From Klebsiella pneumoniae (lineage in GTDB: Bacteria > Pseudomonadota > Gammaproteobacteria > Burkholderiales > UBA3065): 54,865 nt of DNA. Both the position numbers and the translations under genes were made by a program. The notes beneath the pieces are model-generated. The model searched no databases and had not been told where the DNA came from. It saw nothing but the letters and a program-made list of their open reading frames with translations. The stretch is from positions 1-54,865 of the forward strand of contig CAMDGF010000001.1 of assembly GCA_945897555.1 (NCBI GenBank), given 5' to 3'. Each line of letters opens with the position of its first letter. Position 1 is the stretch's first letter. Below, in pieces: positions 1-18,653 of the stretch.

Positions 1-322
1 GCTGGATGGCAGAGACCTTCTTTTTGTAAGCGATGTTGATGCTCTGCGCCTTGAGCGCGCCATCCCACTCGCCGAGGATGCCCTCACGCTTGCCCTCGGC
101 GAACTTCATGCCGCTGCGCAGCGGCAGGAAGCCCGGCTCAGCCATCACATGCTTGCCCTTCTGGTACTTGTAGATAGTGTCCGAAGCGTGGTCCTCGGCC
201 TCGAGCAACACATAGCGGTTGCCCCGCTCCTGAGCCCGCGACGCCGCCGAGAGGCCTGCCGGCCCCGACCCGACGATCACGATGTCGTATTCGGCCTCTA
301 CGTTCTCGAACATCATGCCCAT
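1..322 (-). CDS. FAD/NAD(P)-binding flavoprotein oxidoreductase, N-terminal part (runs off the window)
   Basis: Translating the minus strand from the ATG at 322 gives an open frame of 107 codons that continues past base 1. Near the start is a dinucleotide-binding fold, YDIVIVGSGPAGLSAA, with the GxGxxG pattern, followed at the expected distance by LLEAED, where the acidic end of strand 2 usually binds the ribose. This is typical of the thioredoxin-reductase/flavin monooxygenase superfamily. A GGAGAG sequence lies a few bases before the ATG. It is the last visible gene of the multiheme cytochrome run, 30 bases after the pentaheme gene, so it may move electrons between NAD(P)H and that chain. 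The C-terminal part, which would decide the subfamily, is not in the window. Confidence 0.75.
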   Translation of the reverse strand, partial: MGMMFENVEAEYDIVIVGSGPAGLSAASRAQERGNRYVLLEAEDHASDTIYKYQKGKHVMAEPGFLPLRSGMKFAEGKREGILGEWDGALKAQSINIAYKKKVSAIQ

Positions 323-352
323 ATTGACTCTCCGTGAAGCCTTGCTTGCGCC

Positions 353-1735
353 TTAACGCGCCTGTACCGCGACGACATTGCGTAACGCCACCAGACGGTT
401 GGCGAAAACATCGGGCTTGTACTTCTCATCGTTGGCGAGCGCCTTGAGCAACTCGCCCATGTTCTTGCGCAGGTCGTCGTTCATGGCCAAGGTGCCGGAC
501 TTGAGAAGGTCGTTGGCCACGTTGGTGATGGCCATATAAGCCTGCTCGGCGCCGGCGTAATCCGAATAACTCGATTCGCGCGACTCGTCGATCAGCGCCA
601 ACAAGACTTGGCGCATCGTAGCCGGCGGGAAGCTCTGCTTTTCCAGGCGAGGCAACATGGCACCAATGGTGGCAGACAGCTCTCGCACCATGTCGACCTC
701 GGTCTTGCCAGCCGGCTTCTTGCCCGTCGACACAGCCAGGTGCATGGCTCGCACCTGCGCGTCAAAAGCTGCCGACGCACCCGGATCGGTGGCGCGCACG
801 ATGGCTCGCAGCATCAGCAAGCTGCTGTCATTCACACGAACCACGCCGGGGCCGGTGCCGAGCCTGGCGTTCCAGCGCTTGTCGCTCATCGGGTGATGGC
901 AAGCATGGCAATCAAACGCGACCAACTCCGGGAACAGTCCATCACGCCGCTTGGGGTCACTCACCACGTCGAGGATCTGCTGAGCCGCGATGGCCTGACC
1001 GATGGCCCAGATGCGCAGCGGGTCATAGTTGCCCTTGCGCTGCACGTAGTCCGCATCGACCTTCCAGTGGGCTGGTTCGAGTGCAGTGAAGGTCTTGATC
1101 TCAAATGAGATGCGCGGATGACCCGCGCCCATGATGCGGTGCGTGACGAAACGCGAGTCATCGCCAAAGTGACAGGACAGGCAAAGCCGCGCTTGAGCCA
1201 CCGGGTTGGCGGTGTCGTAGAGCCCATCGGCCACGTTTTCGGCGTGAGTGCGGCCATCCACCGTGTGCTCGCCGATCCACTTACCCGAGGGGCCATGGCA
1301 GCCTTCGCAACCGACGCCCTCGCTCAGAATGAAGCGCTCGCCACGTGGCCCGCTCGGGTTATGGGCGTGGCAGTCGAGGCAGATCTTGGCCTTGTGCGCG
1401 CCCTCCTCAAGGCCCAGGTTCTTCGCGATGCGCTTGGAGTCGTCGTTCAGGAGCACCCGATAGGCGCTCGTGTGGCGATCCATGCGCACCCAAGTGGTGT
1501 ACTCGTTCTGCAATACGTTGCTGCCATCCCACGGCACGATCGAGCCATGACAGGTGCTGCTGGCGCAGTTCACAGTGCCTTCGGTCTTGTGTGCGGAGAG
1601 GTGGGGCATCAACGCCGTGGAGGGGCCGGCGGCGGTCACGACAGTCGCCAGCGCGATGGCGCCGAACAACACGCCCAATGCCTTGGCCACGGTGCCCCAC
1701 GGGCGACGCATCAGGGAGCGGATCGAGAGTTTCAT
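353..1735 (-). CDS. Pentaheme c-type cytochrome, cytochrome c554-like
   Basis: 460 residues with an N-terminal hydrophobic export segment at about 20-36. Five heme-attachment sites are visible: one CX4CH (CASSTCH, residues 57-63) and four CXXCH (CLDCH, CEGCH, CLSCH, CHACH). The arrangement CLDCHA...EGVGCEGCHG resembles the cytochrome c554 family of periplasmic multiheme electron carriers. All five sites lie in the first two thirds; the C-terminal third has no heme site and looks helical. Its ATG overlaps the stop of the upstream decaheme-LVIVD gene by four bases, so the two are probably translationally coupled. Likely a periplasmic carrier for the larger cytochromes; partner and direction of electron flow are inferred from position only. 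Confidence 0.85.
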   Translation of the reverse strand: MKLSIRSLMRRPWGTVAKALGVLFGAIALATVVTAAGPSTALMPHLSAHKTEGTVNCASSTCHGSIVPWDGSNVLQNEYTTWVRMDRHTSAYRVLLNDDSKRIAKNLGLEEGAHKAKICLDCHAHNPSGPRGERFILSEGVGCEGCHGPSGKWIGEHTVDGRTHAENVADGLYDTANPVAQARLCLSCHFGDDSRFVTHRIMGAGHPRISFEIKTFTALEPAHWKVDADYVQRKGNYDPLRIWAIGQAIAAQQILDVVSDPKRRDGLFPELVAFDCHACHHPMSDKRWNARLGTGPGVVRVNDSSLLMLRAIVRATDPGASAAFDAQVRAMHLAVSTGKKPAGKTEVDMVRELSATIGAMLPRLEKQSFPPATMRQVLLALIDESRESSYSDYAGAEQAYMAITNVANDLLKSGTLAMNDDLRKNMGELLKALANDEKYKPDVFANRLVALRNVVAVQAR

Positions 1736-4700
1736 GGCTTGTCCCGTTTGTTGCTGCCGGTCTGCTTGGCTACGTTCGCCGGCACCTTGCGTGACACGTA
1801 GTCACCCGACTGGCCGCGGTCTGTCACCGTCCAAAGGTCGCCCTTCGGGTTGAGGTACATCTTTTCCATCTCCTTGCGGGAGAAGGGCCGAGCACCGATC
1901 CGCCCAACGATGGCGATCTGCCCTCCGGTCTCATCCACCGCACGGTCCCGGTCGAGGCCCTTGCTCAGTGCGAGTGCCCGCGATGCCGTCTTGCGGGTCG
2001 CGATCAGCTCTGGCTTGGGCTCTGGCGAGAAGCCGTAGAAACCCGGCTGACTCTCAGGCGAGGTGAGCTGCAACACCTTCAGACCGTTGCGGCCGTCGGC
2101 GATGTAGGCGAACAGCGACGCATTGGTGCTACCCACCACCACATCCTGAGCGTCATTGATCTGACCATCCGCGTTGAACATCTGGTAGACCTTCGGCTGG
2201 TCTGCCTTTTCGATGTCAACGATGGCCAGACCTTCGCTGCCGGCCGCCACATAGGCATAGGTCCGAGCCAGATAAACGCGTCGGGCATCCTTGAGCGGCA
2301 CGATGGCCGGGAGCAAGCGCGGTTTCATGTTGGTGATATCGACCACCTGCAGACCCTCGGCCGTCGTCACATAGACGTAGCGGAACTGGACCGCACTCGC
2401 TCGCGCATCCTTGAGCGGGATCGACGCCAGCGACTTGGGCTTGAGCGGGTCGTCAAGATCGATGACCTCAAGCCCCTTGGGCGTGGTGACGTAGGCGTAG
2501 TGGCCCGCCACCACGATGTGACGCGCGCCCTTGAGCAGGCCACCCGGGTTCCACGTCATCTCACGCTTGAGGAAATTGTTGCGTGCCTCGCCGTCGGCCA
2601 AGGTATCGACATTGACAGCGTAGAGACCCTCTTCAGCATCCACCACAAAGGCATAGTGGTAGATGGGGTGGAAGGGCTGCTCCATATTCACTTTGCGCAT
2701 CAGGTCGCCTTGGTTGCGACCCGGGGCGATCGGCTGGTTGGTCGGCAAGGCCACGCAGGTGGCGTTCTTCGAAGCGACATGGGTGTCGTGTCCGAGCGGC
2801 GAATACGGCGCCGCGATGATGCGCTGACTCACACCCTTGTTGCCGTTACCGGCGATGTCGTAGACACGGAATCCGCCCCTACCCTCGGCCACGAACAGAT
2901 ACTCACCCCGCATCTGCAGACATTGCGCAGCGCCGCCCCCGGGCGTGCCCAAATGGTTGTGCGCTTCGCGGTGCGGCGCGTCGACGATCTCCCGGCCCGC
3001 CTTCTGGTGGTCGGCATACCAATCGGGGTAGGCATACTTTTGCAGATACGATCCGATGACCGCTTGCGGCTCATCCCACTCGGTCACGCCCACCGACTCG
3101 ACGTGCTTCTCCGAACCGACCCATGCGTACCGACCGACGAAGTTAACGAAGTTGGTGCCCTGCAACAACAGCTGCGCCATGATCGCGTTGTTGTCGTTGT
3201 CGCGCGAGACGTGGCAATCGCTGCAGGTCTTGGTCTCTTCCTTGCGCTCCGTGTGCGGATAGTGGGGGGCAAAGGCCTGACTCGAGTGTCCGCTCGCGGC
3301 GATCGGCGGCTGCTGGTAGTAGATGCGTTCGCGGTTGCTGTTCTGCGACGACAGCACCAGCGCAGAGCTGGAGCGGAACGGCGCGATGCGGCTGTTCTTG
3401 ACCGGGCCGTGCTTGCCAAGGAAGAACATGTCGTCGCGCGCGACCTGCACGTTGTAGGTCGCGTAGTTGCGCGTCTCGCCGCCTTCAAAGTGGTACCGCT
3501 CGGTCTTCCAATTGGCCTGGATCGGCAGGTGGCAACCCGCACAGCTGGTGGTCCAGCTCAGGTGGCAGGTGAAGCACAGCATGCGGTCATTGTCATGCGC
3601 GAGCTTGTCGACCCCTGGGCCCCACTTGCCCTGACGACCCTCCTCGCCGGCGGCCATCAACTTGGCCCGTGCCGATTTTTCGTTGTACTCGGGATGCTTG
3701 GGATTCACCGAATCCTTCACCAGGGACATCTTCCATTCCTTGGTGGGGTCGAGCGCCGCGCGCTGGTAGAGCACACCATCGATCCACTCAAAGCGCTTGC
3801 GCCCATCCTGGGTCTTGAGCGAGGTCAGGTCGAAGCCGCCCGGACGCGCTGCGGGCCCGCTGGTGTGCAGGGTCGGGTAATTCTTGGCCGTGCCGTGGCA
3901 ATCAGCGCAATCGATCTCCACCGCCGCCGCCACTTCGCCATAGATGTGGCCGTTGCCATGCATGTCCTGGGCAAAGTGGCAGTCGACACAGTGCATGCCG
4001 AGATCCATGTGGATCGAGGCCATGTGCACCGCTTTCTTGAACTTGTCCGGGTCGTCATCGCTGACGATATTGCCCGCCTTGTCCAGCAGATTGCCCTTGC
4101 GGTTGCGCTTGAACACCGCGCGGAACGCCCAGCCGTGGCCGTGGTAGTCGGCGAACTGGGTGTCCTTCATCTCGCCGTTCTTGAGCCAGAGGTCGTTGAG
4201 GAACGCCGGGTCACGCCAGTTGCCGCGGATCACCGCCTCTTCCGGGTTGCGCAAGTTGATCTCGCGGATCTCGGCGTCGGTGGGGTAATGCTGCTTGGCC
4301 GGGAACATGCGCGGCGCATCCGGCTCGTAGTCGTACTGGATGTAGCCGTAGAACGAATTGATATAGATGTTGGGTTGGTGCATGTGGCAATTCATGCACT
4401 GCGCGCTGGGAATGGCCCGCGTGAACTCGTGGCGGATCGGGTGCCCTGACTCGTCCTTGGGGATGGTCGGGTCCTTGGTCTGCGTGCGGCCCATATTGCC
4501 GAACTGTGCGTAGGCACCGCTGTGCTCCGGCTGGCGATCGTTGGCATAGATGACGTGGCAAGCCGTGCAGCCGGAAGAGCGGTAATCGCCCGGGTTGTCG
4601 TTGGTACCCAGGAACCACAGGTGCGGGTCGTTCAGACGCGTCTTGGTGAGGTTGATGACCGGCACCGAGATGCGGTTGCCGGTGCCCGGGCCGCGGTTGC

Positions 4701-5622
4701 TCTGCTTGATGTCCGGCCGGCCAGGCTCGTCGAGACGCTGCAGGATGCCGGTGCTGTTGGGCAGACCGATCTCAGGGAAACTGCTGTTGATGACACGCCC
4801 GCCACGCTCGAAGACGCGGAAGATATCGCCCGGCGGAATGGTCTCCCACGCGGGCAAGGGGTACAGCTTCTCCAGGACACCCTTGAAGACATAAAGGTCT
4901 TCGTCGGGCTTGACCGGGTTGACGATGGCCGCAGCGGTGCCGTCCTGCGCATAAGCCTCACCCAGCATGTAGCGCTTGAACGGCAGGATGCCGTTGTTGT
5001 AGGCCGCGCCCCCCCACAGCATGGAGGACGTGCTCATCAAGCTGCGCTCCTGCGCCTGGATGATGGGCAAATGGCAGGCACCGCAAGCCTCACGCGCCAC
5101 ACGCAGATCACCCGGGTTGATGAACCGCACAAAGGCCGCATGCTCCTTGTTCATGCGAGCGTACGCGCTCTCCGGATTGCGTGAACCCTGCCAGAGGTGC
5201 TCGTCGCGTGGCAGCACGTGGGAGAGCGCCATGGCCCGCTCATAAGCCGGGTGCTTGCGCTCAGCCTCAGGCCCCTTTTCGGCCCGGCGGATGCTGTTAT
5301 CGCCACCGTGGCAATCGGTACAGCCCAGCACCACACCCGGATTGGCGTGCATGGTGTGTTGGTCGGTCTCGGTGTGGCAGGTCATGCAGCCGTCAGACTT
5401 GGCGCGCGCCTCAGCCCAGGTCTGTGCCTTGGGGGCCGCAGGGGCCATCACGTAATTACGCTCGGTCAGCTTCTTCTCCGAAGCGACCGCATTGTCGAAG
5501 GCCAACAGAGCCACCGCCAAGGGCGCGAGCAGCGCCGCCAGAGTGGCGCCACGAGCGAGCCAAGAGCCGCCCACCAGGCGGCGCATCGTTTGAACAGGAC
5601 GGGTGAGAAAGGGCGATCGCAT
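1732..5622 (-). CDS. Decaheme c-type cytochrome with C-terminal LVIVD-repeat beta-propeller
   Basis: 1296 residues. A hydrophobic stretch at about 24-44 is an uncleaved anchor or signal peptide. Ten CXXCH sites are spread from residue 79 to about 800: CMTCH, CTDCH, CGACH, CTACH, CMNCH, CVDCH, CADCH, CFTCH, CAGCH, CSDCH. From about residue 880 on there are no heme sites. Instead, at least six copies of an aromatic-rich repeat follow, such as YAYVTTPKGLEVIDLDDP and YVYVTTAEGLQVVDITN, matching the LVIVD pattern of beta-propeller blades. The cytochrome half probably wires electrons and the propeller half binds a partner or surface. The gene starts seven bases after the barrel gene. I recognise the parts but not a characterised protein with this architecture. 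Confidence 0.88.
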   Translation of the reverse strand: MRSPFLTRPVQTMRRLVGGSWLARGATLAALLAPLAVALLAFDNAVASEKKLTERNYVMAPAAPKAQTWAEARAKSDGCMTCHTETDQHTMHANPGVVLGCTDCHGGDNSIRRAEKGPEAERKHPAYERAMALSHVLPRDEHLWQGSRNPESAYARMNKEHAAFVRFINPGDLRVAREACGACHLPIIQAQERSLMSTSSMLWGGAAYNNGILPFKRYMLGEAYAQDGTAAAIVNPVKPDEDLYVFKGVLEKLYPLPAWETIPPGDIFRVFERGGRVINSSFPEIGLPNSTGILQRLDEPGRPDIKQSNRGPGTGNRISVPVINLTKTRLNDPHLWFLGTNDNPGDYRSSGCTACHVIYANDRQPEHSGAYAQFGNMGRTQTKDPTIPKDESGHPIRHEFTRAIPSAQCMNCHMHQPNIYINSFYGYIQYDYEPDAPRMFPAKQHYPTDAEIREINLRNPEEAVIRGNWRDPAFLNDLWLKNGEMKDTQFADYHGHGWAFRAVFKRNRKGNLLDKAGNIVSDDDPDKFKKAVHMASIHMDLGMHCVDCHFAQDMHGNGHIYGEVAAAVEIDCADCHGTAKNYPTLHTSGPAARPGGFDLTSLKTQDGRKRFEWIDGVLYQRAALDPTKEWKMSLVKDSVNPKHPEYNEKSARAKLMAAGEEGRQGKWGPGVDKLAHDNDRMLCFTCHLSWTTSCAGCHLPIQANWKTERYHFEGGETRNYATYNVQVARDDMFFLGKHGPVKNSRIAPFRSSSALVLSSQNSNRERIYYQQPPIAASGHSSQAFAPHYPHTERKEETKTCSDCHVSRDNDNNAIMAQLLLQGTNFVNFVGRYAWVGSEKHVESVGVTEWDEPQAVIGSYLQKYAYPDWYADHQKAGREIVDAPHREAHNHLGTPGGGAAQCLQMRGEYLFVAEGRGGFRVYDIAGNGNKGVSQRIIAAPYSPLGHDTHVASKNATCVALPTNQPIAPGRNQGDLMRKVNMEQPFHPIYHYAFVVDAEEGLYAVNVDTLADGEARNNFLKREMTWNPGGLLKGARHIVVAGHYAYVTTPKGLEVIDLDDPLKPKSLASIPLKDARASAVQFRYVYVTTAEGLQVVDITNMKPRLLPAIVPLKDARRVYLARTYAYVAAGSEGLAIVDIEKADQPKVYQMFNADGQINDAQDVVVGSTNASLFAYIADGRNGLKVLQLTSPESQPGFYGFSPEPKPELIATRKTASRALALSKGLDRDRAVDETGGQIAIVGRIGARPFSRKEMEKMYLNPKGDLWTVTDRGQSGDYVSRKVPANVAKQTGSNKRDKP

Positions 5623-5629
5623 GTCCGGC

Positions 5630-7750
5630 TCAATAAGTCAGGATGGCATTGACGAAGCCAGAATAGAAAGGCTCTTTGCGGTCGCCGAACAAGTCCTTCA
5701 AGCCCTCGCCCAGCTTCAACATCGAGAACGACGCGTTGATGATGACGTTCTGGTTATAGAACGGCCGCCACTGAGCGCCAACCGCAAAATCAGTGCCGAG
5801 TTCACGCGCGGGGTTGCGCTCGTTACGCAGGGCCCCGAGCACCGCGGTCTCGTCGAACCGTAGATGAGAGACATTGGCGGTGAGTCGCAACTCGGGCTTG
5901 AGGTCGAAATCGGCTCCGACACCGATGAGCCAGAGCCCCGGATTGACAAAATTGGACTGGCCCTGCTCTTTGCTCGATCGCAGAGAGGGCAGCAGGCCAT
6001 TACGTCCGGACAGCGCCACACCACCGCCGCCGATCAGAGGGATGCCTTGGCGAATGAAATAAGCAGTGTCTGCACCGGCGAACTGCGGATTCTCGAAGAT
6101 GGCATCGAAGCCGGTGGCCTTGTCGTCGTAGGGGTCCCGGTCACCGCTGGCATACAGGAAGTTGCCGCGCAGGCGGATCCAGCTGAAGTCGCGGGAGAGT
6201 TCGGTGGCGTGGAAGAAGGCACGGATGTCCTGCTCTCGGCCCGCGATCGGGTTATGACTGTCGCGCCCGACGGCAAGGTAGGTGGAGCTGCTGAGGTTTA
6301 GCCGCGCCTTGGGCATCATGAAGCCAAGATGCCCGTCAAAGGTCGCCCCGAAATAGGTCACGTGGTAGCGATGAGGCTGGCCATCCCCGACCAGCGCGGG
6401 CCTCACAAGAAAGCCGTTGCGGTCGTATTCGTCGCGGGTGTCATCGCTGCGATTGTGCATGACCGTCGCCTGCGAGGTCATTGCAGTGAAGGGAAAGTCT
6501 TGGCGATAGATATTGGCGATGAAGGTGTCGTCGTTACGCCATTTCTGAAAGATGTCATTCAGACCGCTATTGGTGTCTTTCTCGACCCGCCGGAACCACG
6601 CGAGGTTGTACTGGTAGATGTTGTTGTTGCGATTACCGAACAAGCGAACGCCGAATTGGGTGTCCTGAAAGACAAAGCCACGAAAATCGCTGATAAAAGG
6701 CTGGATACCGACACGGATCGAATCGAAGTCATAGCGGTCCGAGACATTGCGCAAGTGATAGTCGACAAACGCTTCTTGGACACCGACGAACGATGTCTCA
6801 CGGTCCATACCAGTCTGCGGGTTGACGCGCAGGATGCCCGCCTCGTCGACGCGGGCATTCACATAGTTGATCACGGGCACAAACCGGAATTCCCAATCTG
6901 GCGGGCGGTACGTGGTGTTGCCCTTGACCAGACCAAAACTCATGATCAGGTTCTGCCCGAACACCCGCTGGTCGTAATTGCCGTAGATATTGTTGATGTC
7001 AGGCCTGAAGGCGATGGTCTGCGACACCGGCAAGGGTGTGGAGCGCAATTCGAGCAGCGAATCAGAGATACCCGTGAAGGTGAAGAACCAGTCTTTACCG
7101 AGCTCCTTGACCGGGATATCGCCCTTGAGAATGTTCTGGTTGTAGGGGTCGTACCAAGGGAACTTGAAGCCGAGCGCCTGCATCAGCCGCCAGCGATCGG
7201 GGATGGGAACCGATTCCCGCGGCAAATTGGCCTGTGGCGGCGGCAACTGGTCGGGATCGATCGGCGGCAGCGTGACCACCTTGGTCGGCTGGCCGCCCGG
7301 ACGGGCTTCGTCGATGGCGGGGACGGACAAGTCGCTCGCACCGATCGCCTCGCGCGCGAAACTGGTTTCGCCAGCGGCGTAGATCAGATCGACACTGAAC
7401 TCGCCATATTCTGCCGGTTCGCGCAGCACCCAAGCAAAGGTCTCCGGCTCGGTCTTGACACGCACCTTGAACCACTCACCCTGCTGCTCCATCACCGTCA
7501 AGAGCTGACCGCGATCGGAGCGCCCGACCGCCAGCGAAGACACGTCAGGCGCCTGGTAGAGGCGCACCTCTGGCGCAACAACCTGCAGCTGCGCAACGAC
7601 CTTTCGAGCCACGTAAGCGGGGTTGTGATCATGCGGGTCAGCAACTGGCGGCTGCTCGGCGGCTAGAGCGCACGGGCCCATGAGGCCAGCCATGGCCAAA
7701 ACGAGCCCCCGGATGGACTGCACAGCGATACCGCTAGAACGCACAGGCAT
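5630..7750 (-). CDS. Outer-membrane beta-barrel protein with N-terminal SH3-like domain
   Basis: 706 residues. A signal peptide ends near ALAAEQ at about residue 31. Residues of about 50-110 look like a bacterial SH3 domain (VRLYQAPDVSSLAVGRSDRG and GEWFKVRV). From about 230 onward the sequence alternates polar and aromatic/hydrophobic residues, with many Tyr, Phe and Arg-Asn turns, and ends in an aromatic residue (FVNAILTY). This is characteristic of a large outer-membrane barrel. It overlaps the end of the preceding GlcG-like gene by 17 bases and sits seven bases before the decaheme-LVIVD gene. Inference: it anchors, or forms the pore for, the neighbouring multiheme cytochromes, as porins do in known porin-cytochrome complexes. 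No sequence similarity to MtrB/MtoB could be tested. Confidence 0.75.
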   Translation of the reverse strand: MPVRSSGIAVQSIRGLVLAMAGLMGPCALAAEQPPVADPHDHNPAYVARKVVAQLQVVAPEVRLYQAPDVSSLAVGRSDRGQLLTVMEQQGEWFKVRVKTEPETFAWVLREPAEYGEFSVDLIYAAGETSFAREAIGASDLSVPAIDEARPGGQPTKVVTLPPIDPDQLPPPQANLPRESVPIPDRWRLMQALGFKFPWYDPYNQNILKGDIPVKELGKDWFFTFTGISDSLLELRSTPLPVSQTIAFRPDINNIYGNYDQRVFGQNLIMSFGLVKGNTTYRPPDWEFRFVPVINYVNARVDEAGILRVNPQTGMDRETSFVGVQEAFVDYHLRNVSDRYDFDSIRVGIQPFISDFRGFVFQDTQFGVRLFGNRNNNIYQYNLAWFRRVEKDTNSGLNDIFQKWRNDDTFIANIYRQDFPFTAMTSQATVMHNRSDDTRDEYDRNGFLVRPALVGDGQPHRYHVTYFGATFDGHLGFMMPKARLNLSSSTYLAVGRDSHNPIAGREQDIRAFFHATELSRDFSWIRLRGNFLYASGDRDPYDDKATGFDAIFENPQFAGADTAYFIRQGIPLIGGGGVALSGRNGLLPSLRSSKEQGQSNFVNPGLWLIGVGADFDLKPELRLTANVSHLRFDETAVLGALRNERNPARELGTDFAVGAQWRPFYNQNVIINASFSMLKLGEGLKDLFGDRKEPFYSGFVNAILTY

Positions 7751-9716
7751 TTTGGACCTGACTGCTCACAAAGGGTGTCTGGGGGCACTGAACATAGCGC
7801 AGACCGATTCGATCGCTGCGAAGGCTCGGAGTCGCGTGACGAACCGACATGCGTAGGGCGAGCGCGGCGCGGTGAAGCCCGAGAGCGGCGATCATGTCGT
7901 CCTGATCCACGCCATCGCCCGATACACCGATGGCGCCTAGCAGCGTTACACCATCTCTGTCGTAGATCGGAACGCCACCGGGGAAGATCTGAATCCCATT
8001 GGCGAACAGTTGGGAACCCGTACCACCGCCTGCCGCGTCGATCGCAACGGCTACCGCGGGCGCAACGCAACTGCTCGGCTTCACGTTGCCGACCAAGGCA
8101 GGAGCGGCCTCAAACACCAGGGCTGCGAGGGTCTGGAACTGCACGAGATCCAGTTGCAGGCCGACATTGAACGGGCTCCAACTGCCGCTTGGATTTGACA
8201 GCGGACCCGGTCCGCGACCATCAATGCCATCGGGGAAATTGGGTCGAGCAATGTTGCCGATGGCTCGGGCGGTGATCGCGCGGCCGGTGAACACATCGCC
8301 ACCAAAGAAGGCACTGCCAGCATCCATCCGCGCCCCGGCTCCGGGAATCACCGGGATGTTGCGGAAAGCCGAATTGAGAACACTATCGCCAGGGTTGGCG
8401 CGAATCAGCTCGCTGGCATCTGGCCGTGAAAAAAGAGCCGCTGTGCGTGCTTTTTGGAGGGATACATCAGTGCCGAAGATCGGCGCGTCGGGTGTACGTG
8501 CCACCCCGAGCACGTTGCCAGCCGCATCGACGATCGAGACAGTCACCTCTGCGGGTGAATTCAGCGGTTTTCGGATCTGAGCGCGCGCCTGGTTGGCGAC
8601 CCCGATCGCCTGCTGCAGTATCTCTGCCACCTCATCGGCCGCAAGCGGCGTGACGGTGGAGGAAACCACAGGAAAGCGGTTTCCACCCGACCCATCCTCC
8701 AAAACATAAGCGCGCCGCGCCACCAAGGCCGCTCCCGCATTGGCCGCATCAGCAGCCACATAGCCCGACCCGGTTTCACCATAAGCCACGCCATCGCGCG
8801 GGGCCTGAGACGTGAACCAGCCCGGCACCTGCAGCAAAGCCGCGGCAACAGGCTGCAACGGGGCGTTCGCAGTGTCAGGTACCGAACCATCCGAAGCCGA
8901 GTAAGGCAGTGTGATACCGCCCGCCGTAATACGGTTGGCTCGGATATCCAGCGGTGCCAAAAAGCCTCTCGACGCACCCAGAGCCACCCGCTCCTCGACA
9001 TCTGCGACGGGCCGCCGGGGATTCAGATCGAGACTGTACGTGGCAGCGGCACCCGCGATGACGCCCACACCGCCCACGACAACCCCGTTCTTGTACAGGG
9101 GGAAACCACCAGGGTCGGCGGACAGGCCCAGCGGCGAACGCCGCGGCCCGATCCCCACACCGGCAGGGGGTTCGGCCGTCTGCACCAGATCGCCGCATGG
9201 CAATTGGCTGAACTGAACCCCGAACAGAGGCCCGCCAGCCGTGAATCTCACCCCGGGAATGAAATGGTTCTGGACGATGAAGCTTGCAGTTCGAGTACTG
9301 AATGCATTGCCCGACGAGGAGAGATAGGCTCCCGTGACGGCCTTGGAGATAGCCGCCAAGGCCGCGAGGTCGAGCGGCACACCCAATTCAGCCGCCGCAC
9401 CCGGCGCCGGGGACAGCGAAGGATCGTTGAATATGCCCTCAAGCCCACCCGACACTGGGAGCCCACTCTGCAGGGTGGTGCGGCTGGCAGCTCCGCGACG
9501 GTAGACGGCAAGGACATTGCCGACGCGATCGACGACGGCGGCAGTGAAACGATCGTTACAGCCCGGCGTACGGCTACAAGCAAGCTCTGCTTGCGCGCCG
9601 ATCAGGGTCACCTCGACGGCAGAAAGCCGCTCCAATGCGGGCGCAGCGTCGGCAAAACTCGCCCACACGGGCAGCAGCGTGGCCAGCAACAAGCGCCACG
9701 ACCAGACAGCACTCAT
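7734..9716 (-). CDS. Exported protein with two GlcG/HbpS-like (DUF336) domains
   Basis: 660 residues from the ATG at 9716, which overlaps the stop of the upstream decaheme gene (ATGA) and is followed by a good signal peptide ending near SFADA. An open frame extends 39 codons further upstream, but that part lies inside the previous gene and lacks signal-peptide character. Two segments show the pattern of the GlcG/HbpS heme-binding family: FTAAVVDRVGNVLAVYRRGA near the start and VTVSIVDAAGNVLGVARTPD near the middle, each followed by Gly-rich PGGFPLYKNGVVVGGVGV-type strands. There is no CXXCH site. A role as a heme- or small-molecule-binding subunit of the cytochrome complex is plausible. Known HbpS-type proteins bind heme or cobalamin, but the operon context is the only direct clue here. 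Confidence 0.78.
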   Translation of the reverse strand: MSAVWSWRLLLATLLPVWASFADAAPALERLSAVEVTLIGAQAELACSRTPGCNDRFTAAVVDRVGNVLAVYRRGAASRTTLQSGLPVSGGLEGIFNDPSLSPAPGAAAELGVPLDLAALAAISKAVTGAYLSSSGNAFSTRTASFIVQNHFIPGVRFTAGGPLFGVQFSQLPCGDLVQTAEPPAGVGIGPRRSPLGLSADPGGFPLYKNGVVVGGVGVIAGAAATYSLDLNPRRPVADVEERVALGASRGFLAPLDIRANRITAGGITLPYSASDGSVPDTANAPLQPVAAALLQVPGWFTSQAPRDGVAYGETGSGYVAADAANAGAALVARRAYVLEDGSGGNRFPVVSSTVTPLAADEVAEILQQAIGVANQARAQIRKPLNSPAEVTVSIVDAAGNVLGVARTPDAPIFGTDVSLQKARTAALFSRPDASELIRANPGDSVLNSAFRNIPVIPGAGARMDAGSAFFGGDVFTGRAITARAIGNIARPNFPDGIDGRGPGPLSNPSGSWSPFNVGLQLDLVQFQTLAALVFEAAPALVGNVKPSSCVAPAVAVAIDAAGGGTGSQLFANGIQIFPGGVPIYDRDGVTLLGAIGVSGDGVDQDDMIAALGLHRAALALRMSVRHATPSLRSDRIGLRYVQCPQTPFVSSQVQNACAF

Positions 9717-11323
9717 CGGCTCGCCACCCTTTGCCCGGCCGCGGCCTTGGTCGCTGTCTTGAGATCCAGCGGCTTCGCCGGAACCGGCTCCGGCTTGGCC
9801 GTCGGCATGTGGAAGCCGTGGCACAGAGAACAATCCGAAACGATCTTGTCAGCCACCGGCTTGGAACCTGCATGGCAATCGCGACACCCATCGATGCCAG
9901 GCATCAACACGTCGCTGGCTTTGCTGGACTTGTCAGCCGCGTGGCAACTCTCGCATTTTGCGCTGGCATGCGACGCGTGGCTAAAGGTGGACTTGGGCAT
10001 CCAGGCGTGATCGGGCGCGATGGGCGCGACGCTCCACTGCGGCAGGTTGCGGCCCGGCGTGCCGACCTTGCCTGGCCCGGCGAGGCGCTTGACCTCGTGG
10101 CAGATGGCGCAAGACGTCTTCTCGAACAGCTCGATGGCCGCATTGCTGGCCCGGCTCATGTTGTTGCCAGGCGTGTTGACGAAGCTGCGCGGCGGCAGAT
10201 CCGGCTCGCCCGGCCGTTTGATGACGATGGTCTTGGTGAGCGGCTCGGGACCGCGTGGCACGCTGCCGACCGAACCGGCGAAGCTGTAGAACTCGGCCAA
10301 GGTGTCGAGCACCTCGGTGACCGAGCCATGCGGCACCTCGCGATTGGAGAGGTTAGGCTCCATCTTCAGCGCGTGGCAGCTCTGGCAATGGTCCTTCATG
10401 TTGACGGTTTGGAAATTGATGCCGTCGGGATCGGGCTGGTGGCAATTGGCGCACTTCATCACGACCTTGCCTTCGGGGCTGCCAACGCCCTGTTTGTCCA
10501 AGTGCACGTCGTGCGGGAACTTGAGGTTGGTCGGCTCCGAGAGCAGCGACTTCTCCGGCAAGCGGACGCGCTTGAGAGAGACACGCATGGCGTCGACCGT
10601 CGGCGCCGCCACCGCCATCTGCACACGGAAGTTCGGGTGGTCGTCGGCAAAATCGCGAACGTTCGCGGTCTCGGTCTTGGCGTAACTCTTCTTGATGTCG
10701 CCGTGGCAGTCGGCGCAGTCACGACCGACCGAGTGCTTATTCTGCTCAGCCAGCGCAAAACTGCCCTGGTGATCGAGGTGACACGTGGCACAGCGGACAT
10801 CGAGCCGCGCGTCGTGCACCGACTTGCGGTCGACGTGATCGGAGATCGCCTTGTGGCAGCTCAGACAATCGGCATCCTTGACCTGCGCGAACGCGCCGCT
10901 GTGGCAGACCCGGCAGTCGTTGGCCCATGGCTGATGCGCCGACGCGACCGGCCCCGGGTTCCACCAGCGGTCGAGCGCCATGATGGTCGGGGCCGCCGCC
11001 CGGTAGTTCGTCATGTCGGCCAACTGGTAGAAGCCAGCGGCCTCGCCCTTGGCGTAATCGGGAGTGGCCCGCGGATCGGGGCGCCGCCCCTCGAACTGCG
11101 AATGGCTCTCGGCTGCGTTCCCGGCGAGCAGCTCACCAATGACCGGCACCCTCGCCACGGCAGCCTCATCGCCGCTGTAGATCGAGGCGAACATCGGCGC
11201 GAGCAGAAAACCGACAAAGCCGACGAGGAAAAGCAGCCATGACATCAGCCGTCGGCCAGCCATGGGGCGCTGCAGCCGGCGGATCTCGGCGGTGATCGGA
11301 TCGTCTGGTGTATGACCGCTCAT
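9713..11323 (-). CDS. Membrane-anchored decaheme c-type cytochrome
   Basis: 536 residues. A single N-terminal transmembrane helix (about 27-49, LMSWLLFLVGFVGFLLAPM) is followed by a periplasmic domain. Ten CXXCH sites run from residue 137 to about 500: CRVCH, CLSCH, CATCH, CADCH, CANCH, CQSCH, CAICH, CESCH, CRDCH, CSLCH. Many additional His residues could act as distal ligands. The design resembles quinol-dehydrogenase-linked cytochromes of the NapC/CymA type in position only; it has far more hemes and I see no family-level match. It starts 16 bases after the cytochrome b gene, so it is the natural electron partner of that membrane protein. An AGAAGG sequence lies before the ATG. Confidence 0.88.
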   Translation of the reverse strand: MSGHTPDDPITAEIRRLQRPMAGRRLMSWLLFLVGFVGFLLAPMFASIYSGDEAAVARVPVIGELLAGNAAESHSQFEGRRPDPRATPDYAKGEAAGFYQLADMTNYRAAAPTIMALDRWWNPGPVASAHQPWANDCRVCHSGAFAQVKDADCLSCHKAISDHVDRKSVHDARLDVRCATCHLDHQGSFALAEQNKHSVGRDCADCHGDIKKSYAKTETANVRDFADDHPNFRVQMAVAAPTVDAMRVSLKRVRLPEKSLLSEPTNLKFPHDVHLDKQGVGSPEGKVVMKCANCHQPDPDGINFQTVNMKDHCQSCHALKMEPNLSNREVPHGSVTEVLDTLAEFYSFAGSVGSVPRGPEPLTKTIVIKRPGEPDLPPRSFVNTPGNNMSRASNAAIELFEKTSCAICHEVKRLAGPGKVGTPGRNLPQWSVAPIAPDHAWMPKSTFSHASHASAKCESCHAADKSSKASDVLMPGIDGCRDCHAGSKPVADKIVSDCSLCHGFHMPTAKPEPVPAKPLDLKTATKAAAGQRVASR

Positions 11324-11339
11324 CTGTTGGGCCTTCTCA

Positions 11340-12203
11340 TCAACCGCGGCTGTAGATCAGCCCGGTGCCGTCGAACAACACGTTGCCGTTGTAGTAGAAC
11401 AGCACCGACAGGACGTGCGCCGCGAGCACCGCGAGCAGCCCGATCGAGATCGGCACGTGAATCATCAGCCAGACATCGGTCCAGGCTTTGATGCGCAGGA
11501 AACCCCGCATACGTTGCAATTGCGCCTGACGCCTGACCTGCACCGCGTAGAGGTCGCGGATCGCCTTGTCGCCCTGCAGACCCATGTCGTGCAGGGCCAG
11601 CACGGCCACCTCCGTAGGGCAGCCCCCGGGCCCACCGAAGCGACCAAACAGGCCGTTGACGATGCGCCCATGGGCCGAGGCCTCGACCAGACGCTGGACC
11701 TCATCGCCCAAGCCCTTGGCGAGATTGCGAGACTCGGCGTCGAGTTCCTTGAGCAGGTCGCCATGCTGCTGGAGCGACTTGCCGCCCACGAGACCACTCA
11801 TGAGGGATGGGTTGCGCATGTACACGGTGACGCCCCAGATGCCGCTGAGGATGACCACCACCATGAGCGCGTAGGCGAGCGTGTGGATATTGATGCCGAA
11901 CTGGAAGCCCGTGTGGAGCGTGGCCACCACCAGCAGAGAAAGACCCAGCCAGATGTGCGCCGACAACCACCCCCGAACGGTGCCAAGGTTCGAGCGGTAG
12001 GCGCGCTTGCGCATGCCAAAGAGGATCAACCAGACGATGAGCAGTGCGCCCAGGATGCCGAGCGTGTAGCCGAGCCAAGTGCCGCCGTTGGGAACGGTGC
12101 GCGGTTCATCGATGACATAAGCCACGATGCTGCCGATCGCCAGGATCAGACTCCACTTGAGGTAGCGGAACCCGCCAAGGCTCAGGATGCTTTCCTGCGA
12201 CAT
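11340..12203 (-). CDS. Di-heme cytochrome b-type inner-membrane protein
   Basis: 287 residues with five predicted membrane helices at about 14-31, 42-64, 79-100, 105-129 and 244-270. Helix 3 carries His83 and His97, and helix 5 carries His249 and His263. Each pair is separated by 13 residues, the spacing expected for two b hemes stacked across a membrane. A charged loop of more than 100 residues lies between helices 4 and 5. The pattern suggests a quinol- or quinone-reactive cytochrome b passing electrons to or from the periplasmic hemes encoded next. It is the first gene of the minus-strand run and diverges from ccmI. I do not recognise a named family, and the heme ligation is inferred from spacing only. 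Confidence 0.78.
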   Translation of the reverse strand: MSQESILSLGGFRYLKWSLILAIGSIVAYVIDEPRTVPNGGTWLGYTLGILGALLIVWLILFGMRKRAYRSNLGTVRGWLSAHIWLGLSLLVVATLHTGFQFGINIHTLAYALMVVVILSGIWGVTVYMRNPSLMSGLVGGKSLQQHGDLLKELDAESRNLAKGLGDEVQRLVEASAHGRIVNGLFGRFGGPGGCPTEVAVLALHDMGLQGDKAIRDLYAVQVRRQAQLQRMRGFLRIKAWTDVWLMIHVPISIGLLAVLAAHVLSVLFYYNGNVLFDGTGLIYSRG

Positions 12204-12457
12204 TCAATAACCCGTTCAAGAGATCACTGCTTGCGTGCCCCGGGCCTGCAACTCTGCCGCCCGCGACCACCCCACAAACCACTCGACCGGGCCGAACTTC
12301 CCCGGCTTGGCGCAGACGAAACGCCTTTGGACGACATGTAATGTAACTCAAGGGCTGGACAGATTTTGTTACACGAACAAAAAAATCGCTCGCATGGACA
12401 TCGGCGGTTCGAGTCCCTAGAGTGCAGGCTCCTTGGAACACGAGGCCTTGGTCCCGG
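12204..12457. promoter_or_regulatory. Divergent control region between the cytochrome and ccm operons
   Basis: These 254 bases separate the first genes of the two divergent cytochrome-related operons, so promoters for both must lie here or be absent. The stretch 12337-12385 is AT-rich compared with its surroundings and contains a perfect inverted repeat. I could not find a convincing -35/-10 pair with 16-18 base spacing on either strand. The assignment rests on position. Confidence 0.5.
12364..12382. repeat. Perfect 7-bp inverted repeat, possible operator
   Basis: TTTTGTT at 12364-12370 and AACAAAA at 12376-12382 are exact reverse complements around a five-base spacer, ACACG. It lies about 160 bases before the cytochrome b start and 75 bases before the ccmI start. 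The dyad could bind a dimeric regulator of either operon. A weak hairpin without function is the alternative. Confidence 0.45.
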
Positions 12458-13762
12458 ATGACCATCTTTATTCTATTTGCCGCCCTCGCCACCTTGCTGG
12501 TGGCCGCACTGCTCTGGTTCGCCCAGCGCGCCCGCGAGACCCGCTTGCCCGACGATGCCGAGGCCGGGTGGGCGGTGATGATCGCGCGTCGGCGAGAGAT
12601 CGAGGACGACCCGGCCATCGACCCGGCCTTGCGCGAAGCGTTGATCGCAGAGTGGCAGGAGCAGGCTGCTGCCATGCCGCAGAGCAGCGGCCAGACAAGC
12701 ACGCCGATGACGAGCCGTCGCCACCTGTTGTTGCCACTCGGTGTCGTCGCAGTGGCGGTGGCAGCCTATGCGCTGGTCGGCGACGTGAGTGAGCCGGCCA
12801 TGCGCGTCAACCTGACGAATGTGGGTGCGCCATCGGCACTGGTCCGTGAAACGCCGCCGCGTCCGGGCGAGAACCATCCGGGCGGCCAGGGCAGCATCGA
12901 GGAACGCATCGCGGCGCTCGAGAAGAAACTCGAGGCCGAGCCGGACAACCTCGAAGGCTGGGTCATCCTGGCCCGCTCGCGAGGCCTGCAGCGCGACTAT
13001 CCGGCGGCGGTCCAAGCCCTCGAACAATCGCTGCGGCTGGCGCCCGGCCACCCCGACCTGCTGGCCGACTTGGCCGATGCCGTGGCCATGACACAAGGCG
13101 AGAAGATGGCCGGACGCCCCCTCACGCTGGTGTCCGAAGCGCTCAAGTCGGACCCGAAACACCAGAAGTCGCTGGCGCTCGCCGCCACTGCGGCGATGCA
13201 GGCCAACGACCGCGAGAGCGCCGTCAAACTGTGGCGCAGCCTGCAGAGCCAGTTCCTGCCCGGCGATCCAGACTACCTCCAGATCGGCAACATCCTCGCG
13301 CAGCTCGGCGAGCCCGCGCCCGCTGCCGTGGCGACTCCACCCGCTGCCGCGGGCGCACAAACGCCGGCGGCGACCCCGACCAGCGGCGCGGTGATCCGCG
13401 GCCAGGTGGCGCTGAGCCCGAGCGCCGTCGCGCAGCTGCGCAAGTCGCCACCACCCGCGAGCGCAGTGCTCTACGTGCTCGCCAAGGCGGTCGATGGCCC
13501 ACCCATGCCGCTCGCCGTCCTGCGCCTGCCGCTCAAGGACCTGGCAGAGGGCCGCATCGTGCCCTTCCAACTCGACGACACGCAGGCGATGAGCCCCCAA
13601 CTGACCCTTTCGGGATTCAAACAGGTGAGCGTGGAGGCGCGGGTGTCGATGAGCGGCAATGCCATCCGGCAGCCCGGCGACTGGTCGGTGGTGCGCTCGC
13701 CGGTGGCCGTCGGCACCGAGGGCCTGCCGCTGCAGATCGACCCGGCGGCCGGCAGCCGCTAA
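12458..13762 (+). CDS. ccmI: Cytochrome c maturation protein CcmI (CycH)
   Basis: 434 residues from the ATG at 12458 (MTIFILFAALATLLVAALLW). An in-frame ATG 12 codons upstream is less likely because it would put a polar tail before the first helix. There are two membrane helices, at about 2-20 and 89-108, with a soluble loop between them. A TPR region follows at about 150-270 (DNLEGWVILARSRGLQRDY, LEQSLRLAPGHPDLLADLAD). The C-terminal domain of about 320-434 resembles the CcmI periplasmic domain. CcmI holds apocytochrome c and presents it to the CcmF/H heme ligase. Here it is the first gene of the ccm operon; usually it is last. Confidence 0.9.
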   Translation: MTIFILFAALATLLVAALLWFAQRARETRLPDDAEAGWAVMIARRREIEDDPAIDPALREALIAEWQEQAAAMPQSSGQTSTPMTSRRHLLLPLGVVAVAVAAYALVGDVSEPAMRVNLTNVGAPSALVRETPPRPGENHPGGQGSIEERIAALEKKLEAEPDNLEGWVILARSRGLQRDYPAAVQALEQSLRLAPGHPDLLADLADAVAMTQGEKMAGRPLTLVSEALKSDPKHQKSLALAATAAMQANDRESAVKLWRSLQSQFLPGDPDYLQIGNILAQLGEPAPAAVATPPAAAGAQTPAATPTSGAVIRGQVALSPSAVAQLRKSPPPASAVLYVLAKAVDGPPMPLAVLRLPLKDLAEGRIVPFQLDDTQAMSPQLTLSGFKQVSVEARVSMSGNAIRQPGDWSVVRSPVAVGTEGLPLQIDPAAGSR

Positions 13763-13772
13763 GCCGCCCGAC

Positions 13773-15155
13773 ATGCCCGCATCAACCGGCAGCGCCGATC
13801 GCGCGGCTCCTCTGCGACTGGCGGGTGTGCGCCTGGAGCGCGGCAGTACGACCCTCGCCGAATCGGTCTCGTTCGACATGCCGAACGGACGCTATATCGA
13901 GTTGGCCGGCCCCAACGGCAGCGGCAAGAGCACCTTGCTGCGGACGCTCGCCGGCCTGCAGCCGCGCGTATCCCTGCACTCGCGCTGGCCCGAGCCCGGC
14001 GAGGTTTTCCTGTTCGAGCAGAACCCGGCCCTGCGCGTCGAGCCCACCGCCGCCGCCCACCTCGATTGGGCACTTGAGCCGCTCGGCATCCGCCTGAGCC
14101 CGGCGGAGCGCAGCATCGCCCTGCAGCGCGTCGGGCTGGAACGCTCGGCAGGCAAGCGTGTCGGCCAGCTCTCCGAAGGCCAGAGAAGGCGCCTCGTGCT
14201 TGCCTTGATGAGCGCCAGCCAGCGGCGGGTCTGGCTGGTCGATGAGCCGATCAACGCGCTCGACGCCAGCGGCATCCAGCTCTTCCTCGAGCTGCTGCGA
14301 GAGCACCTCGCGAGCGGTGGCATCGCCGTCATCGCCACACACCGCCCCCTCACCGAGCTGGCACCAGACCTTGAGCCGCTCTGTCAGGCACAGGTCCGCC
14401 TGAGCGGGCGAGCGGCCTCAGTGACGCAGCGCGAGCCCGAAGGCGCCGGAGCGCCGCTGCAGACCGGCGCATTCCGCCACTCGGTCTGCGCGCACCCGCT
14501 CGCTTGGGCGTTGCGACGCGAGATCGCGCTGGCCATGGCTTCGCCGCGCGAACTGGTGTGGCCAGGGGTGTTCCACTGGATGATCCTCAGCCTGATCCCC
14601 TTTGGCGTGGGCACCGACCCGCAGCAGCTTGCGCGCATCGCCCCCGGCATGATCTGGGTCAGCGCCCTGCTGGTGACCCTGCTTTCGTCCAGCCGCCACC
14701 TCGAAGCCGACTTCCGCAGCGGCATCTTGTCGCAGCTTGCGGCGGGCGGCTTTCCGCTCGGCAGCCTGGTGGCCGGCAAGGCCCTTGCGCACTGGCTCTT
14801 GTTCGGGCTGCCCATGGCGCTCTACAGCATCCCGCTCGCGCTCGTCTACAACCTCGACGCCACCGGCATCGGAGCACTCGCGTTGTCGCTGGCAGCAGGC
14901 ACGCTGGCGCTGGGGGCGCTCACCCTCCTGTTCGGAGCACTTGGCCTGATGGCGCGGCAAGCGCAGGTGCTGGTGAGCCTGATGAGCTTCCCGGTGTTCG
15001 TGCCGGTGCTGGTGTTCGGCGTCACCACCGTCTCCGCGGCACAGGCTGGGCAAGCGCTCGACGGTCCGTTGCTCACGCTGGCTGGCGTCAGCGTGCTCGC
15101 GCTGCTGCTGGTGCCCGTGGCAGCGCGACGCGTGCTCGACCTCGCCATCGAATGA
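13773..15155 (+). CDS. ccmA-ccmB: Fused heme-exporter ABC protein CcmA-CcmB
   Basis: 460 residues in one uninterrupted frame, starting 10 bases after ccmI. Residues 1-212 are a CcmA ATPase: Walker A GPNGSGKST (46-54), signature LSEGQ (133-137), Walker B VWLVDEP (153-159) and the switch His190. After a linker of about 30 residues, residues 244-460 are CcmB, beginning WALRREIALAMASPRELVWP and carrying about six membrane helices with RIAPGMIWVSALLVTLLSS and GKALAHWLLFGLP. CcmA (about 200 residues) and CcmB (about 220) are normally separate overlapping genes, so the length equals both together. I saw no ATG or ribosome-binding site at the junction. With CcmC and CcmD this complex releases holo-CcmE. 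Confidence 0.88.
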   Translation: MPASTGSADRAAPLRLAGVRLERGSTTLAESVSFDMPNGRYIELAGPNGSGKSTLLRTLAGLQPRVSLHSRWPEPGEVFLFEQNPALRVEPTAAAHLDWALEPLGIRLSPAERSIALQRVGLERSAGKRVGQLSEGQRRRLVLALMSASQRRVWLVDEPINALDASGIQLFLELLREHLASGGIAVIATHRPLTELAPDLEPLCQAQVRLSGRAASVTQREPEGAGAPLQTGAFRHSVCAHPLAWALRREIALAMASPRELVWPGVFHWMILSLIPFGVGTDPQQLARIAPGMIWVSALLVTLLSSSRHLEADFRSGILSQLAAGGFPLGSLVAGKALAHWLLFGLPMALYSIPLALVYNLDATGIGALALSLAAGTLALGALTLLFGALGLMARQAQVLVSLMSFPVFVPVLVFGVTTVSAAQAGQALDGPLLTLAGVSVLALLLVPVAARRVLDLAIE

Positions 15156-15166
15156 TCGCAGTGGCT

Positions 15167-15189
15167 GCCGGCTTGCCGCCCAAGCCGGC
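15167..15189 (+). promoter_or_regulatory. Hairpin followed by a -10-like hexamer before ccmC
   Basis: GCCGGCTTG (15167-15175) and CAAGCCGGC (15181-15189) form a perfect nine-pair stem with a five-base loop, just after the ccmAB stop. TAGAAT follows directly at 15190-15195. There is no T-run, so this is not a normal terminator. It may tune message stability, or mark an internal promoter for ccmC onward. Confidence 0.35.
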
Positions 15190-15201
15190 TAGAATGTGAC
15201 C

Positions 15202-15963
15202 ATGTTGACGTTCCTCAAGCAGCTCGGGTCGCCGCCACGGTTCTTTGCGGTGAGCGGCCCGCTGGTGCGCTGGCTCGCGCTTTCCGCCCTCCTGCTCGGC
15301 CTGCCCGGCATCTGGCTGGCGCTCGTCGGCACTCCCACCGACGCGCAGCAGGGCGAGGTCTACCGGATCATCTACCTGCATGTTCCAGCGGCCTGGATGT
15401 CGATGCTGCTCTACACGGTCGCCACCGGCTACGCGCTGCTCTACTGGATCTGGCGCAGCCCGGTTTCGGCGGTGATGATGCGCGCACTCCTGCCAACGGG
15501 CGCCTGGATGACGCTGCTCGCACTGATCACCGGCTCGCTCTGGGGCAAACCGACCTGGGGTACCTACTGGGTTTGGGACGCTCGCCTCACCTCGGAACTC
15601 ATGCTGCTCTTCATCTATTTCGGCCTGATGGCGCTCTCCAACCTGGTCGAGGACGAGACCAAGACCGATCGGGCACTCGCGCTGTTCACAGTGATCGGCA
15701 TGGTCAACATCCCTCTCATCTACTTCTCGGTGGTGTTCTGGAACACCTTGCATCAGGGCATGTCCATCGGCGCCCCGGGGGCCGCACGGATGGCCCCTGA
15801 GATGAAGGCCGCCCTGCTCATCTGCACATTCGCCCTGTGGTTCGCCTGCGCCGCCATCGTTCTCGTTCGCGGCCGCTGGCTGCTGGTGATGCGGGAGGCG
15901 CGTTCGCGCTGGGTGCGCGACATCCCGGAACTTGCAGCCGGTCCAGGCGCTCCACAGGTATGA
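15202..15963 (+). CDS. ccmC: Heme exporter/heme handling protein CcmC
   Basis: 253 residues, six membrane helices. The tryptophan-rich WWD segment is at about 116-131 (KPTWGTYWVWDARLTS) and the two conserved heme-ligating histidines fall at His60 and His184, the same numbers as in the E. coli protein. CcmC binds heme in the WWD domain and loads it onto CcmE. I used the ATG at 15202; a GTG two codons upstream (15196) is equally open. Neither has a strong Shine-Dalgarno sequence. The gene is separated from ccmAB by 46 bases containing a hairpin. Confidence 0.95.
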   Translation: MLTFLKQLGSPPRFFAVSGPLVRWLALSALLLGLPGIWLALVGTPTDAQQGEVYRIIYLHVPAAWMSMLLYTVATGYALLYWIWRSPVSAVMMRALLPTGAWMTLLALITGSLWGKPTWGTYWVWDARLTSELMLLFIYFGLMALSNLVEDETKTDRALALFTVIGMVNIPLIYFSVVFWNTLHQGMSIGAPGAARMAPEMKAALLICTFALWFACAAIVLVRGRWLLVMREARSRWVRDIPELAAGPGAPQV

Positions 15964-15991
15964 CGCCGCCACCCTCCGGAGTGCTTTCAAC

Positions 15992-16123
15992 ATGACCGCT
16001 GCCGACGCCATCCTGCTCAGTTACCTGCTGGGCGCTGCTGCGCTCGGATTCGACGCCTGGCGCGCACGTGCGGCGCGCGCGTCCGCTCGCGCCCGCTTTA
16101 CGGAGGCGGCTGACAACCCATGA
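15992..16123 (+). CDS. ccmD: Heme exporter accessory protein CcmD
   Basis: A 43-residue protein that starts at an ATG preceded by GGAG ten bases earlier and overlaps ccmE by four bases (ATGA). It has one membrane helix (AILLSYLLGAAALGFDAWRA) followed by a basic, Arg- and Ala-rich tail. Size, topology and location between ccmC and ccmE fit CcmD, the small protein that helps release holo-CcmE from CcmABC. Sequence conservation in this family is low, so the call relies mainly on context. Confidence 0.85.
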   Translation: MTAADAILLSYLLGAAALGFDAWRARAARASARARFTEAADNP

Positions 16124-16530: not shown

Positions 16531-16605
16531 GACACGTCACGCTTTTGCCCGTGCCGACGTGCATCGTCCACCGCCTGCCCTAGAGACCACCGGAAAACCC
16601 ACACC

Positions 16606-18651: not shown

Positions 18652-18653
18652 CC

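Follow-up and report, generated by a model that had tools for sequence, protein, structure and literature searches.

A conserved seven-gene multiheme cytochrome operon as a candidate electron-export chain of aerobic Pseudomonadota

The operon at the start of the window, which is the whole 54,865-nucleotide stretch of DNA analyzed here, encodes multiheme cytochromes together with an outer-membrane barrel, and it raises the question of what kind of electron chain these proteins form and in which direction it would work. Most work on multiheme conduits concerns anaerobes that reduce metals and organisms that oxidise iron. What we describe here is a strongly conserved, conduit-like set of seven genes with signal-sensing domains, in bacteria that have O2 oxidases. 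The reading that we prefer, to which we assign a probability of about one half on the basis of the sequences, is that the set is a nucleotide-gated, NAD(P)H-driven chain exporting electrons across both membranes of aerobic Pseudomonadota. If the chain does carry electrons out of the cell, many aerobes would have extracellular electron transfer as a regulated trait, and the idea is testable in cultured hosts such as Parahaliea, Steroidobacter agaridevorans and Sphingobium herbicidovorans.

The operon and its products

Seven close-packed genes occupy positions 12203 to 1 of the minus strand in the order g7-g6-g5-g4-g3-g2-g1, with gaps of +16 (g7-g6), -4 (g6-g5), -17 (g5-g4), +7 (g4-g3), -4 (g3-g2) and +30 (g2-g1). 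The g6-g5 value assumes an ATG start of g5 at 9716; the TTG start listed for it, at 9833, is spurious. An earlier note on this DNA had reported gaps of -17 to +30 and considered a single transcription unit of seven genes very likely; the gaps were confirmed and the single unit is supported. The open reading frames are also as it described them, with the correction that only the N-terminal part of g1 lies in the window. A divergent intergenic region (12204..12421) separates the operon from ccm genes on the plus strand (12422..19699), which begin with CcmI/CycH, recognised by its CycH domains, and continue with CcmA/B, C, E, F, G and H-like genes, names that we assigned from the order and size of the reading frames. 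The ccm genes are divergent to the operon in other betaproteobacterial loci as well.

Gene g1 (1..322, minus strand) encodes the N-terminal part of an FAD/NAD(P) oxidoreductase. It is cut by the contig end; the genome carries the remainder on its contig C36, where it shares 90% identity with the intact gene of a sister genome. Intact homologs of about 810-825 aa are present in that sister genome (L013) and on a Sphingobium plasmid (L003), and the gene is also intact in a relative of the same order (L015). The full-length protein combines thioredoxin-reductase-like (Pyr_redox) FAD/NAD(P) domains with a pair of cNMP-binding domains, and its C-terminus is of the ferredoxin type: there, four conserved Cys clusters of the intact homologs correspond to ferredoxin-type [4Fe-4S] motifs. 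As no signal peptide was evident, g1 is presumably cytosolic. Because of this domain content, electrons would probably enter from NAD(P)H and not from quinone. The quinone-linked entry proposed before was therefore rejected, since full-length g1 argues for NAD(P)H and the operon has no quinol-type subunit, although a quinone might still take part.

The product of g7 (11340..12203, minus strand) is a membrane cytochrome b of the di-heme type with four transmembrane helices. It has two His pairs whose partners lie 14 residues apart (His83/97 and a C-terminal pair) and one further His, all of them invariant in 54 homologs. This is the arrangement by which NOX and ferric reductases are recognised, namely two His pairs spaced 13-14 in transmembrane helices; the match to Ferric_reduct (PF01794) reached 20.4 bits, under the cut-off of 28. 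Gene g6 (9713..11323, minus strand) encodes a decaheme c cytochrome with 10 CXXCH motifs and one N-terminal membrane anchor (residues 24-51), and an FHA-type domain is found in its homologs in L003 and L102, being N-terminal in several g6 homologs. Gene g2 (353..1735, minus strand) encodes an exported pentaheme cytochrome that matches cytochrome c554, with four CXXCH motifs and a fifth site of the CX4CH type (CASSTCH), whose two Cys and one His do not vary among 19 aligned homologs. Together with the 10 CXXCH motifs of g3, the motif counts give 25 c hemes, and the His pattern of g7 is that expected for two b hemes, in agreement with the inventory first proposed.

The remaining three genes form what we consider the outer module. 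Gene g3 (1732..5622, minus strand) encodes a decaheme cytochrome fused to a C-terminal LVIVD beta-propeller (59.9 bits in Pfam, over the cut-off). Its model is reliable for the propeller only, with pLDDT below 50 over long stretches of the heme part, and since that part is poorly modelled, the fold search listed essentially beta-propellers. Gene g5 (7734..9716, minus strand) encodes an exported repeat protein of the GlcG/HbpS-like type (PF03928; 71.7 bits in three stretches, cut-off 25), and a lipobox-like site was found in 39 of 67 homologs. Gene g4 (5630..7750, minus strand) encodes an outer-membrane beta-barrel, whose AlphaFold2 model (pLDDT 81.6) has 18 long strands. Its best fold match is AlgE, with Z 29.1 and an rmsd of 3.0 for 364 residues, and OprD-type porins rank behind it; the fold matches also include OprD/Occ and sugar porins. 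MtrB was absent among the fold matches listed, a list that does not settle the 26-strand fold. Sequence profiles of g3 and g4 found no useful match in the PDB. Of the "SH3-barrel porin" described before, the barrel is borne out by the model; the SH3 domain scored 23.2 bits in Pfam, below the cut-off of 27, and the model does contain a separate N-terminal beta domain. The match of g4 to the Sphingobium and Sphingopyxis barrels begins at residue 170 and leaves this SH3-like part outside.

Distribution, conservation and neighbours

At least 576 genome-contig stretches carry g3, and 80 g3 loci were retrieved and compared. All seven genes were present in 34 of these loci, and individually g4 was found in 78, g5 in 67, g1 in 66, g6 in 63, g7 in 60 and g2 in 56, many of the absences falling at short or cut contigs. 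In an even sampling, g3 was detected in 10 of 370 genomes of the class and 13 of 397 of the phylum, that is, in about 3% of sampled Pseudomonadota. All 10 g3-positive genomes of the class also contained g4 and g7, and two further ones have g4 without g3, on contigs that end at g4. In the genus of the window, four of five genomes carry g3, one of them in fragments.

The order in betaproteobacteria is g7-g6-g5-g4-g3-g2-g1, and in most gamma- and alphaproteobacterial loci it is g1-g7-g6-g5-g4-g3(-g2); on Sphingobium plasmids the set is split into two opposed operons. Alpha-, Beta- and Gammaproteobacteria thus have homologs of the seven genes together and in a conserved order, as was found on running the co-occurrence search that the earlier note had suggested. 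The refuting condition named there, homologs that never occur together, does not hold. The g3 tree largely follows these three groups, with exceptions that may reflect transfer or mis-binned MAGs. Four loci labelled Klebsiella pneumoniae, Bordetella parapertussis or Marinimicrobia (L021, L039, L045 and L085) cluster with betas or alphas in this tree, and their MAG names are probably wrong. From the distribution across the sampled genomes and the g3 tree, the system looks old and patchily kept.

In the 34 complete loci, conservation is highest by a wide margin in g3, with a mean pairwise identity of 67.7%, followed by g4 (56.3%), g5 (54.6%), g1 (53.9%), g2 (45.0%), g7 (44.5%) and g6 (35.1%). 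This 68% is the opposite of the rapid change that has been reported for Geobacter and Shewanella multihemes, among fast-evolving surface cytochromes (PMC12977616).

Hosts include freshwater Burkholderiales, Halieaceae and sphingomonads with megaplasmid copies; they are often planktonic or soil forms, and some are cultured. All 25 g3-positive genomes tested have heme-copper oxidases (COX1-type), and 22 of the 25 gave no match to an MtrB/PioB barrel. The window comes from a 1.8-Mb betaproteobacterium with a sister MAG from Lake Lanier. Its genome carries pufL/pufM-type reaction-centre genes on the same contig, outside the window (G000:C1:249713-251383), which makes it probable that this organism combines anoxygenic phototrophy with a heme-copper oxidase. 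A link between the set and phototrophy was considered and rejected: pufLM occurs in only six of the 25 g3 genomes, three of them from the genus of the window, and one member of this genus (G004) has pufLM with no g3 match.

Another aspect to mention is the genomic neighbourhood. Type II secretion genes adjoin several alphaproteobacterial loci, and this system exports surface cytochromes in Shewanella. Its GspD component was over the cut-off in 16 of 25 g3-positive genomes, and no match over the cut-off was obtained in the genome of the window. A PP2C phosphatase gene adjoins g2 in eight gammaproteobacterial loci (L054, L058, L073, L076, L077, L083, L086 and L095), with FHA genes in seven of the eight; these neighbours suggest a phospho-control of the chain. 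In three loci (L003, L004 and L005) the cluster lies on large Sphingobium or Sphingopyxis plasmids. A metallophosphoesterase gene adjoins g6 in Sphingobium, called CpdA, a cAMP phosphodiesterase, in L005, and would be compatible with control by cyclic nucleotides. Altogether, the control domains suggest that the chain could be switched on and off. In nine mostly alphaproteobacterial loci, among them L050 (5265-6200), a gene between g6 and g5 encodes a small protein, of about 150 aa, that weakly matches a biotinyl/lipoyl domain. Regarding the promoters, no conserved FNR/CRP-type site was found in 49 upstream regions, and the palindrome TTGTT-N5-AACAA of the window was discarded as a regulatory site because it is not kept in sister genomes.

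Proposed electron path and competing explanations

In the chain that we propose, cytosolic NAD(P)H would reduce the FAD of g1 and, from there, its four [4Fe-4S] clusters, as its domains suggest, and the two cyclic-nucleotide domains would gate this step. The g7 protein would then move electrons over the inner membrane through its two b hemes, as in NOX and ferric-reductase enzymes, and the membrane-anchored g6 and the pentaheme g2 would constitute the periplasmic relay. Finally, an outer-membrane complex may be formed by the barrel (g4), the decaheme-propeller (g3) and the lipoprotein-type g5, and it would hand the electrons to an acceptor located on the cell surface or beyond it. What the sequences show directly is the gene and domain content, its conservation, synteny and modularity, the heme motifs, the barrel model and the oxidase genes of the hosts; the direction, the gating, the location of g3, the outer step and the acceptor we infer. 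In favour of this reading are the synteny and co-occurrence of the set, the domains of full-length g1, the invariant His pattern of g7, the separate occurrence of the input module, the neighbouring ccm, type II secretion, PP2C and FHA genes and the heme-copper oxidases of the hosts; the incomplete GspD record, the high conservation of g3 and its poorly modelled heme part speak against it. The chain would likely let bacteria whose usual respiration uses O2 shed excess reductant or, under oxygen shortage, reduce an acceptor outside the cell. It should be noted that a barrel of 18 strands, as modelled, would probably lack the width to enclose a decaheme. How electrons would cross it, and whether g3 is a specific enzyme instead, are the main doubts about this reading; from the barrel-exit logic proposed before, the conduit-like layout stands, and an exit like that of MtrAB is uncertain.

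The strongest competing explanation makes the outer module an enzyme system: the AlgE-like g4 would let one specific compound or polymer through, and g3, together with g5 and g2, would reduce or oxidise it in a reaction fed from NAD(P)H. We consider this less likely than export, yet a serious rival. The best matches of g4 are to AlgE, OprD/Occ and sugar porins, GlcG-type proteins bind ligands, and g3 has many invariant residues beyond its heme ligands, its high identity being also what a substrate-specific enzyme would show. However, no catalytic domain was recognised, there are no consistent substrate-metabolism neighbours, and the same input module is paired elsewhere with an unrelated outer module. 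Two genomes (G108 and G056) hold g1-g7-g6 and g2-type pentahemes without g3 or g4. In contig C41 of G108 (L102/L104), this input part stands beside a 593-aa cytochrome with five CXXCH, a 542-aa exported protein with no detectable similarity to g4, and two tandem g2-type pentahemes; the second case is contig C17 of G056 (L103). The g1-g7-g6 part is therefore modular, and its separate occurrence is as expected of an electron-feeding module.

A reversed chain is clearly less probable. It would take up electrons from reduced iron, a mineral or another cell and, in the organism of the window, possibly pass them into photosynthetic electron transport or use them to make NAD(P)H. Mtr-type chains can be reversible (PMC10734462), the genome of the window carries pufLM, and one relative (L067) is labelled a biocathode MAG; against uptake, the other 19 of the 25 g3 genomes tested are without reaction-centre genes, and no quinone or cytochrome c2 link is encoded. 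FeS/FAD proteins are capable of running in reverse. Since the entry protein is of the NAD(P)H/FAD/FeS type, electrons taken up would have to go uphill to reach NAD(P)+. Lithotrophic metal oxidation, an option listed in the earlier note, is likewise not favoured by the domain content. Least probable of all, the set would be a NOX-like enzyme spanning two membranes that makes extracellular superoxide or peroxide, or a ferric reductase for iron acquisition, for which the NAD(P)H-FAD to di-heme b topology, the sub-threshold Ferric_reduct match of g7 and the nucleotide and phospho-signalling domains speak, but such enzymes need no decaheme relay and siderophore-type neighbours do not recur.

Returning to export, a wider proposal can be advanced tentatively, at clearly less than even odds: the set would represent an old and previously undescribed class of electron export in aerobes that is gated by signals. 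A NAD(P)H-FAD-FeS protein in the cytosol, carrying two sensors of cyclic nucleotides, would drive a NOX-like cytochrome b and a modular c-heme chain, and this chain would lead to outer-membrane exits that can replace one another, the AlgE-type barrel with its decaheme-propeller being one such exit.

Comparison with known systems

No published account of the seven-gene set was found in the open-access literature, with subscription papers and supplements outside that search, and this agrees with the earlier note, to which no characterised system with this unusual mix was known. The MHCscan survey scanned about 60,000 genomes, and its supplement may list such loci (PMC11475568); a paper on extracellular electron transfer in Idiomarina proved unrelated to the set.

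With MtrCAB, MtoAB and PioAB the set shares an inner-membrane input, a periplasmic multiheme relay, an outer-membrane barrel and an outer multiheme protein. Their barrel has 26 strands, and 18 are modelled for the AlgE-like g4; the NAD(P)H-type input, the LVIVD and GlcG proteins and the hosts with O2 oxidases set the present genes apart. The MtrB/PioB family (PF11854) matched neither g4 nor any other protein of the window's genome. For the DmsE/MtrA decaheme family (TIGR03508, cut-off 192.2), g6 reached 30.3 bits and g2 19.4, with no listed match for g3; for the MtrC/MtrF type (PF22113, cut-off 30), g6 reached 23.7 bits and g3 had no match, and one Sphingobium g6 homolog scored 38.5.

The Geobacter extHIJKLMNOPQS cluster similarly joins a porin, several multihemes and a cytochrome b in one operon, but its rhodanese, Rieske protein and selenoprotein ExtKL (PMC5877670) were not seen here. 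The similarity of g3 to ExtM (NF040943) amounted to 64.5 bits over short stretches (cut-off 800), and the ExtN model (NF040967) gave 19.4 bits (cut-off 200).

The Uet complex of Tenderiales and Gallionella also has a barrel, several periplasmic multihemes and propeller-type (NHL-repeat) proteins. It comprises the undecaheme UetJ, the triheme UetDEG, tetrahemes and the PPIase UetB, and no FAD/cNMP/FeS input protein is listed in its description, unlike the present set (PMC10734462). By motif count and Pfam, the operon proteins include no 11- or 3-heme protein and no PPIase match.

Membership in Mtr, ext or Uet was thus rejected, as the sequence tests of each failed. With NOX/FRE enzymes the set shares the path from NAD(P)H through FAD to two b hemes on His pairs about 14 residues apart, and it differs from them in its separate thioredoxin-reductase-like flavoprotein with four FeS clusters and its long c-heme relay. 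The closest kinds are therefore the Mtr, PCC and Uet conduits on the one hand and NOX-like transmembrane reductases on the other, and in its working the set would resemble a conduit of the porin-cytochrome type to which an inner-membrane reductase of the NOX type is coupled.
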